Shown here one piece after another: positions 14,858-16,919 of a DNA stretch of 36,973 nt. Each line of letters opens with the position of its first letter. Position 1 is the first letter of the stretch. A model generated the notes under the pieces. It was not told the origin of the DNA. It ran no database searches and saw only the letters and a list, made by a program, of their open reading frames with translations. The stretch comes from Sulfuricurvum sp. (GTDB taxonomy: Bacteria > Campylobacterota > Campylobacteria > Campylobacterales > Sulfurimonadaceae): contig QKCD01000063.1 of the NCBI GenBank assembly GCA_003245815.1, positions 1-36,973 on the forward strand. Direction: 5' to 3'. Made by a program: the position numbers and the translations under genes.

Positions 14858-15118
14858 TTATTTAATGATGCCGAGAAGATCGTCGGTGTCAATGACAAGG
14901 TATTTGGCACCTTCGAGCGTCAGTTCACTTCCCGCGTATTTACCAAATACCACCGTATCGCCGGTGGCGACGTTTTCGACTTCGCTGCTGACGGCGACTA
15001 CTTTGCCCTGGGACGGCTTTTCTTTGGCGTTATCGGGGATGATGATGCCCGATGCCGTGGTAGTCGCTTCTTCGAGGCGCTCGACGAGAACGCGCTTTCC
15101 GAGAGGTTGAAAGTTCAT
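14858..15118 (-). CDS. groES: Co-chaperonin GroES
   Basis: 10-kDa co-chaperonin, 86 residues, slightly shorter than the usual 94-97 but typical for this phylum. It starts [20 protein letters not shown], carries the [17 protein letters not shown] mobile-loop region and ends [20 protein letters not shown] lies before the ATG. It is the first gene of the groESL operon; see the promoter and operator-like repeats upstream. Confidence 0.97.
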
Positions 15119-15142
15119 AGTGATATCCTTTAAACAGTGATC

Positions 15143-15156
15143 TTAATCGCGATTAA
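15143..15156 (-). promoter_or_regulatory. 14-bp palindrome in the groESL leader
   Basis: TTAATCGCGATTAA is a perfect palindrome. It begins just downstream of the expected transcription start and ends 25 bases before the groES ATG. It could be a repressor site or form a short hairpin in the mRNA. Confidence 0.5.
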
Positions 15157-15164
15157 TCGACAAA

Positions 15165-15193
15165 ATAGTACAGAAGTTTTGCTAAATTGTCAA
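15165..15193 (-). promoter_or_regulatory. groESL promoter
   Basis: On the minus strand TTGACA (15188-15193), a 17-base spacer, then TACTAT (15165-15170). This near-consensus sigma-70 type promoter is the best in the window and fits a highly expressed chaperone operon. Confidence 0.7.
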
Positions 15194-15220
15194 TAACTTT
15201 AGTGTGTTTGGCTAAAGTTA
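15194..15220 (-). promoter_or_regulatory. CIRCE-geometry inverted repeat upstream of groESL
   Basis: The arms TAACTTTAG (15194-15202) and CTAAAGTTA (15212-15220) are perfect inverted copies with a nine-base spacer. It directly abuts the -35 box. HrcA operators (CIRCE) have the same 9-9-9 architecture but the arm TTAGCACTC, which is not present here. A second, partly overlapping inverted pair, GGCTAA and TTAGCC, lies at 15210-15228. Confidence 0.6.
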
Positions 15221-15339
15221 AATTAGCCTAATATTCGTAGTGTAATTGTCTGAAACAGTATCATAAGCACGAAAAGCAGTGACGGTCAGTAAGTAAAGTG
15301 CTACAGAGGGATAACGGATGCTGGTGGGAGACGGGGCGG

Positions 15340-16584
15340 CTAGAGGATTGCCTCGTAGCTGTTGATCTTCTCGATGCTTTTCATTGTCAGGGAGATGACG
15401 TCGTCGGCGTCGATGCCGTAGGTTTCCAGGAACGCTTCGAGGCGTTTCATGTCGAACTGTTCGACGGCGCGGGCTGCCTGGAGCAGATCGCCGAGGAGGC
15501 CCTTTTGCTCGAGAAGGGCCTCGGTGATAACGGGATCGAGGTTGAGCTCTTCGAGTACGGTATTCATCGGGGTACCGAGGAGGATGTCGATAAAGGAGAG
15601 GAGCCCGACGAAGTGCACCTCCTGCTTGTCGATCAGCCCCTTGTGCCGAATAAGCCGGAAGAGCCCCAGCATCATTTCGATGCGGTTGAGCAGGAGTGCC
15701 TGGAGGGGCATCTGCTGGGCCGGAGTCGTCATGTTTTTAGCGTTGATGGCCAGCAGCAGCCACTGCATCAGCGGCATGCGCCCCAGCAGGGTCAAAATCT
15801 GCTGGATCGATTTGATCGGGGTGCGGAAATGGAACGCTGCCGAATTGATGTAGCGCAGCAGTTGGGCGGAGAGGGCGGGGGTCTCCTCGAACGCCTCGGC
15901 GATTTCCCGCAGGGGCGCGTCGGCGATCACAAGGCGCCAAAGCTTCATGACGGTGGCCCGTTCAACGTCATGGACCTTGCCGGAGAGCAGTTTCGGTCGG
16001 GAAAAGTAGTAGCCCTGGAAGTAACTGAAGCCGGCGTCCAGGCAGGTATGGTATATTTTGTGGGTTTCGACCTTGGTCGCGATGCAGGCGATTCCCAGTG
16101 CGTTGAGGTGCTGGATCAGGCTGAGGGTATTGAGCGACTCGACATCGGCCTTGCGGGTATCGACCTTGCAGTAGCTGAGATAGGGAAAAAGCGGCTTGAG
16201 AGCCGCCATGACATGACTCTCCAGTGCGGTGTCGTTGATGGCGAAGCGATATCCTTTGGCATGGAAATGGGCGATACGTTCGAGGAGCGCCCCGTTGAGG
16301 GTGATCGTATCGAAGAGGGCCAGGACGAAATGCTCCTTCGGGATTGTATAGATCATATCCTGCATCAGGAAGGGGGTATCGACTTTGATGAAGGCGGGAA
16401 AAGCGCCGACGATCTGTTTGAGGCCGAACTGGTTGAGGGTGTGAACCAGCACGCTCGCCGTCGCCGCACGGTTGTCGGGGCGGGGCGATTCCTTGTCGAA
16501 ATCACGGTAGAGTAGTTCATAGGCAAAGAGTTCGTTCGTCCTGTTCAGTATTGGCTGGCGTCCAACGAAGATCTCTGTATCCAT
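15340..16584 (-). CDS. EAL-HDOD signalling protein with degenerate EAL domain
   Basis: 414 residues. The N-terminal EAL-like domain (about 1-200) begins FVGRQPILNRTNELFAYELLYR and contains the FQGYYFSRP ending typical of EAL. However, the catalytic pair is lost: the DDFG position reads NDTA (117-120) and the Asn of the metal site is Asp69. It is thus unlikely to hydrolyse c-di-GMP. The C-terminal HDOD domain (about 205-400) includes LSAQLLRYINSAAFHFRTPIKSIQQILTLLG. Proteins of this architecture (YuxH/CdgJ type) act as signalling scaffolds, often on motility. It is transcribed alone, with a -10 box at 16613-16618. Confidence 0.88.
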   Translation of the reverse strand: MDTEIFVGRQPILNRTNELFAYELLYRDFDKESPRPDNRAATASVLVHTLNQFGLKQIVGAFPAFIKVDTPFLMQDMIYTIPKEHFVLALFDTITLNGALLERIAHFHAKGYRFAINDTALESHVMAALKPLFPYLSYCKVDTRKADVESLNTLSLIQHLNALGIACIATKVETHKIYHTCLDAGFSYFQGYYFSRPKLLSGKVHDVERATVMKLWRLVIADAPLREIAEAFEETPALSAQLLRYINSAAFHFRTPIKSIQQILTLLGRMPLMQWLLLAINAKNMTTPAQQMPLQALLLNRIEMMLGLFRLIRHKGLIDKQEVHFVGLLSFIDILLGTPMNTVLEELNLDPVITEALLEQKGLLGDLLQAARAVEQFDMKRLEAFLETYGIDADDVISLTMKSIEKINSYEAIL

Positions 16585-16756: not shown

Positions 16757-16833
16757 GTCAGGGTAGCTCAGCTGGTTAGAGCACTGGTCTCATAAGCCGG
16801 GGGTCGGGGGTTCAAGTCCCCCCTTTGACACCA
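16757..16833 (+). tRNA. tRNA-Met (CAT), elongator type
   Basis: A complete cloverleaf of 77 bases with encoded CCA. The acceptor arm GTCAGGG pairs with CTTTGAC (two G-T pairs), the D arm begins with the usual GTAGCTCAG, the anticodon loop is CTCATAA, and the T arm is GGGGGTTCAAGTCCCCC. A paired G1-C72 end excludes the initiator. A tRNA-Ile with lysidine-modified CAT cannot be fully ruled out. A candidate -10 box, TAAAAT, lies at 16732-16737. Confidence 0.9.
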
Positions 16834-16844
16834 TTTATCAATGT

Positions 16845-16919
16845 TCCGGATTAGCTCAGCGGTAGAGTAGGCGACTGTTAATCGCTTGGTCACTGGTTCG
16901 AATCCAGTATCCGGAGCCA
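16845..16919 (+). tRNA. tRNA-Asn (GTT)
   Basis: A complete cloverleaf of 75 bases with encoded CCA. The acceptor TCCGGAT pairs perfectly with ATCCGGA, the anticodon loop is CTGTTAA, and the T arm is CTGGTTCGAATCCAG. It starts eleven bases after tRNA-Met and is surely co-transcribed. The 166 bases between it and rsfS are A+T-rich and show no further gene. Confidence 0.96.

Follow-up and report, generated by a model that had tools for sequence, protein, structure and literature searches.

A predicted HAIR-type operator of HspR adjoins the groESL promoter of Sulfuricurvum and its relatives

Results

Overall organization of the groESL promoter region

The window is a 36,973-nucleotide stretch of a Sulfuricurvum draft genome (contig QKCD01000063.1) and carries groES and groEL on its minus strand, directly downstream of a perfect inverted repeat (Table 1). 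The repeat, TAACTTTAG-TGTGTTTGG-CTAAAGTTA, consists of two perfect 9-base arms separated by nine bases. It sits within the 221-bp gap between groES and a gene for an EAL and HDOD domain protein, and its 27-mer is present as a single copy in the 2.15-Mb draft genome. The hexamers TTGACA and TACTAT, separated by a 17-bp spacer, form a sigma-70-like promoter, from which transcription of groESL is predicted to start near 15158. An earlier, sequence-only reading had described both the perfect 9-9-9 repeat and its junction with the -35 hexamer, and both descriptions hold. Its statement that this is the only near-consensus promoter in the window holds loosely: within 15050-15360, the stretch checked, a second, weaker promoter-like match is found at 15289-15260.

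Two further features surround the repeat. A second inverted repeat, GGCTAA-N7-TTAGCC (15210-15228), overlaps the upstream arm of the operator proposed below, is the same in two other genomes (G010, locus L024; G035, locus L025), and may be a flanking site of lower affinity. The EAL/HDOD gene is the upstream neighbour of groESL and shares its strand, with genes for tRNA-Met and tRNA-Asn beyond it.

Table 1 Features of the groESL region of the window.
Feature	Position	Strand	Basis or remark
Perfect inverted repeat TAACTTTAG-N9-CTAAAGTTA	15194..15220	.	Sequence and shuffles
Proposed HspR operator, HAIR frame CTTTAGC-CAAACAC-ACTAAAG	15197..15217	-	3/14 mismatches to CTTGAGT-N7-ACTCAAG
PgroESL -35 hexamer TTGACA	15188..15193	-	Adjoins repeat directly (15193 is the next base)
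PgroESL -10 hexamer TACTAT	15165..15170	-	17-bp spacer from -35; sigma-70-like promoter
groES, co-chaperonin, 86 aa	14858..15118	-	
groEL, chaperonin, 543 aa	13212..14843	-	
EAL/HDOD domain protein gene	15340..16584	-	
tRNA-Met and tRNA-Asn	16757..16919		

The window contains four perfect 9-9-9 repeats, compared with a mean of 0.1 in 60 dinucleotide shuffles, and such a repeat arises in 0.08% of shuffles of the groES-EAL/HDOD gap. The remaining three are GC-rich or coding-like in sequence. With four such repeats in one window, the layout alone is suggestive but proves little; conservation in relatives settles the status of the repeat. The three further repeats and the AT-richness of the gap speak for a chance palindrome, an RNA hairpin or a terminator, but we give such an origin next to no likelihood. 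The repeat lies upstream of the predicted start and so outside the groESL leader, the repeat region contains no terminator-like site and no Rfam match, and the fixed distance to the -35 hexamer, conserved in relatives as described below, refutes this explanation.

The arms are unlike those of CIRCE, as the sequence-only reading had noted: within 250 bp upstream of groES, the best match to TTAGCACTC-N9-GAGTGCTAA differs from it at 9 of 18 positions. The same reading had seen no site of the HAIR type, which was mistaken. The repeat itself is the best HAIR match of the window, with 3 mismatches in 14 positions (the runner-up has 4). The Streptomyces HAIR is CTTGAGT-N7-ACTCAAG, and the repeat shares its spacing, its dyad and 11 of its 14 arm bases. 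In this frame, the proposed operator is centred at 15207, about -49 relative to the predicted start.

The element conserved in relatives is HAIR-framed

The closest GroES relatives of the window are Sulfuricurvum and other Sulfurimonadaceae or Campylobacterales metagenome-assembled genomes; in the genome counts, the family is Sulfurimonadaceae, as inferred from these GroES relatives. The unit conserved on the dyad of the repeat is a 21-bp element in the HAIR frame, CTT(T/G)AG(T/C)-N7-(A/G)CT(A/C)AA(G). It corresponds to HAIR with a frequent G-to-T or C-to-A swap in each arm. In place of the central G in the left arm of the Streptomyces HAIR and the C in its right arm, the family mostly has T and A, respectively, and the family consensus departs from HAIR consistently only at these positions. 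Individual groESL sites in the family are mostly 3-5 mismatches from canonical HAIR.

Column statistics show that seven bases on each side of an N5 core are strongly conserved and that the flanking bases have little symmetry. Therefore, the conserved unit is 7-7-7 in HAIR terms. The outer TAA/TTA by which the window copy extends this unit is not conserved across the family. Judging from these alignments, the 9-9-9 frame of the window copy, which had been read as the layout of an HrcA operator, is coincidental and misleading. The likeness to CIRCE consists in this frame, found in the window copy alone, and in the position at groESL; the arm sequence and the conserved frame differ.

Of 50 family genomes, 41 have the 19-mer TTKAGYC-N5-GRCTMAA before groES, with up to 2 mismatches allowed, compared with about 1.2% of shuffles, a count that is partly circular since the motif was read off groES upstream regions. 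It ends 4-6 bp before TTGAC in 39 of the 41. Thus the comparison of groESL upstream regions suggested by the sequence-only reading does recover the element in relatives. Of the 61 family genomes, 11 were left out of the count because groES gave no hit or was a fragment, or because its upstream region was unfetched or shorter than 100 bp, and 3 of the 60 groES starts assumed in the upstream comparison are not ATG. At the named loci (a set of 80, one dropped as too short), the motif is found within 2 mismatches in 69 of 79. Nine of the 50 family genomes have no element before groES, that is, at least 3 mismatches (G007, G009, G013, G018, G033, G034, G060, G070 and G081); their groESL may be under other control.

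The element is shared with other chaperone promoters

An exact scan of 60 genomes with TTKAGTC-N5-GACTMAA yields 20 sites in 16 genomes, and none with the reversed pattern. Every one of the 20 precedes a chaperone gene (groES, 5; grpE, 7; htpG, 6; dnaJ, 1; hsp20, 1), with none elsewhere. The scan was unselected and is less circular than the motif count at groES. Pfam confirms HSP90 at the three htpG loci tested and DnaJ at the dnaJ locus; the hsp20 locus and the remaining htpG loci are presumably what we call them, having been named from sequence recognised by eye.

In the genome of the window itself, two sites match TTKAGYC-N5-GRCTMAA with no more than one mismatch, one at groESL and one at C37:1216-1234, upstream of grpE-dnaK, so that a copy does exist at another heat-shock promoter, where the earlier reading had proposed to look. 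The reversed control also gives 2 matches, and it is therefore the location of these sites, not their number, that counts as evidence. Two HAIR-like sites occupy the own grpE promoter; the downstream one, at a distance of 49 bp, covers the -35, and pairs 49-50 bp apart recur in 47 of 51 family loci. Upstream of grpE, 29 of 51 family loci have the motif within 2 mismatches, and 45 of 51 have a site within 3 mismatches of canonical HAIR (0.9% of shuffles in each case). Upstream of cbpA-hspR in relatives, sites within 3 mismatches of canonical HAIR overlap the -35 at 22 of 22 loci (shuffles, 2%), with 3 of 25 loci left out because they end short of the promoter. These sites are near-canonical and CTTGATTGACnnnGACTCAAC-like. 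The element is hence shared with HspR-type targets, namely the own grpE-dnaK and, in relatives, grpE and cbpA-hspR.

These promoters bear on whether the repeat is instead the operator of a different chaperone regulator with a HAIR-like half-site. The G of HAIR is replaced by T in typical groESL arms, the own assembly is without hspR, and binding of HspR to the repeat is a prediction. On the other hand, the grpE sites combine both arm types in one palindrome (e.g. TTTAGTC-N5-GACTCAA), the cbpA-hspR operon itself bears near-canonical HAIR, and neither of the two MerR proteins of the draft (P0001 and P0002) scores above the HspR cut-off. We consider a different regulator unlikely.

HspR is widespread and HrcA is absent from the family

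Of 100 genomes, 93 encode an HspR that scores above the curated NCBIfam cut-off (56 of 61 in the family, the own genome counted; 37 of 39 in other families), and the motif HPQTLRQYE is present in 25 of 25 HspR sequences inspected. The own assembly, a metagenome-assembled genome that is 81% complete and 6% contaminated, has no HspR above the cut-off. Since 56 of 61 family genomes have one, we infer that hspR lies in sequence missing from the assembly.

P0001, the best HspR hit of the assembly, was considered as the missing HspR and rejected. Its best NCBIfam model is HspR, yet it scores 47.8 bits against a cut-off of 105; it belongs to another MerR group, and its relatives in G023, G064, G081 and G058 (54-73% identical) coexist with HspR. 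P0001 is a MerR-type regulator of 117 aa (L042, 1456-1809), encoded just downstream of a winged-helix response-regulator-like frame and with counterparts of 47-73% identity in five further Campylobacterales genomes.

For HrcA, the Pfam model PF01628 gives no match above cut-off in 100 genomes and is unusable as a presence test because it misses the short HrcA of Campylobacterota. In its place we used alignment A1, whose 8 members all match NCBIfam PRK03911. With this Campylobacterota-type model, none of the 61 family genomes, the own included, yields HrcA, while 26 of the 39 from other families of the order do. At the family grpE loci inspected, the preceding sequence has no frame resembling hrcA. 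CIRCE-like sites (at most 5 mismatches, within 110 bp of groES) are present in 24 of 26 genomes with HrcA compared with 3 of 63 without (Fisher p 3e-16, uncorrected for relatedness). In relatives with HrcA, these sites occupy positions of about -39 to -101, nearer to groES than the HAIR-like element, which forms a site of its own further upstream. An unexplained exception is G043 (L342), where neither HspR nor HrcA is detected, the HAIR-like site is missing, and a CIRCE-like site with 2 mismatches precedes groES.

The sequence-only reading had offered a diverged HrcA or another heat-shock regulator. HrcA governs groESL in many bacteria, and the window copy has the 9-9-9 layout, but a diverged HrcA acting on a variant form of CIRCE is highly improbable: the regulator is absent from the family, CIRCE-like sites track HrcA and are distinct from the HAIR-like element, and the outer arm bases are not conserved. 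Another heat-shock regulator is well supported.

Distance between operator and -35 hexamer in the order

Across Campylobacterales (L304-L363 and L044-L073), the distances from the HAIR-like site to TTGAC cluster near 5, 16, 27 and 38 bp, with roughly a helical turn between neighbouring clusters. With one value for each of 17 families, the clusters (4-6, 14-17, 23-28 and 36-39 bp) differ from a uniform null (p 5e-5). Among the 8 families outside the 26-28 class, phasing is not significant (p 0.21). Because the 26-28 class may simply be ancestral, we do not claim helical phasing. Nor is the loss of HrcA linked to operator position: three families without HrcA (f6, f7 and f14) keep gaps of 23-28 bp, and two with HrcA (f9 and f17) have 5-6 bp.

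Discussion

The groESL repeat is very probably a HAIR-like operator of HspR, a heat-shock repressor of the MerR family, a prediction made from sequence comparison. HspR is widespread and HrcA absent in the family, and H. pylori and C. jejuni provide a precedent; HspR is therefore the best candidate. A dimer of HspR would bind the 21-bp core CTTTAGC-N7-ACTAAAG (groES strand), centred some 49 bp before the predicted start. Positioned against the -35 hexamer of a housekeeping promoter, bound HspR would hinder RNA polymerase at groESL, and heat or unfolded protein would lower HspR activity and relieve the hindrance. HspR activity is modulated via CbpA in Helicobacter pylori and via DnaK in Streptomyces. 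With HrcA and CIRCE missing from the family, groESL, grpE-dnaK and the cbpA-hspR operon of HspR itself would have no dedicated repressor but HspR, and in some members the same would hold for htpG, dnaJ and hsp20.

In H. pylori and C. jejuni, HspR acts together with HrcA at groESL and dnaK. In reports on these species, HspR binds HAIR-like sites upstream of the groE core promoter and HrcA binds on the core (PMC6102357, PMC7464140, PMC6032397). The 7-7-7 repeats of the family at groESL, dnaK and cbpA-hspR resemble the HAIR operators of both species (Pgro, Phrc and Pcbp), the groESL site is likewise upstream of the core promoter, and, as in C. jejuni, dnaK has extra sites of lower similarity; the groESL site of the window, centred near -49 and adjoining the -35, differs from that of H. 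pylori (-72). Unlike both species, the family has neither HrcA nor CIRCE, its arms are mostly TTTAG instead of TTGAG, and some members also have sites at htpG, dnaJ and hsp20. Unlike for the Streptomyces HAIR, groESL is a main target. A HAIR variant placed against the -35 is in itself an ordinary element; somewhat unusual is its setting, in a family that seems to have lost HrcA.

We found no published description of HrcA-less, HspR-only control of chaperone genes in the family in the open-access literature, subscription journals being mostly outside the search. The balance tips modestly towards the broader proposal that the whole family has dropped HrcA and CIRCE and keeps groESL, grpE-dnaK and cbpA-hspR (in some members also htpG, dnaJ and hsp20) under HspR alone, with TTKAGTC-N5-GACTMAA as its shifted form of the HAIR consensus and with the groESL operator fixed at the -35, roughly two helical turns nearer than in most members of the order. 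If they are indeed HrcA-less, these free-living relatives would be a natural single-repressor version of the H. pylori and C. jejuni circuit, and the family consensus permits chaperone operators to be found in many uncultured Campylobacterota.
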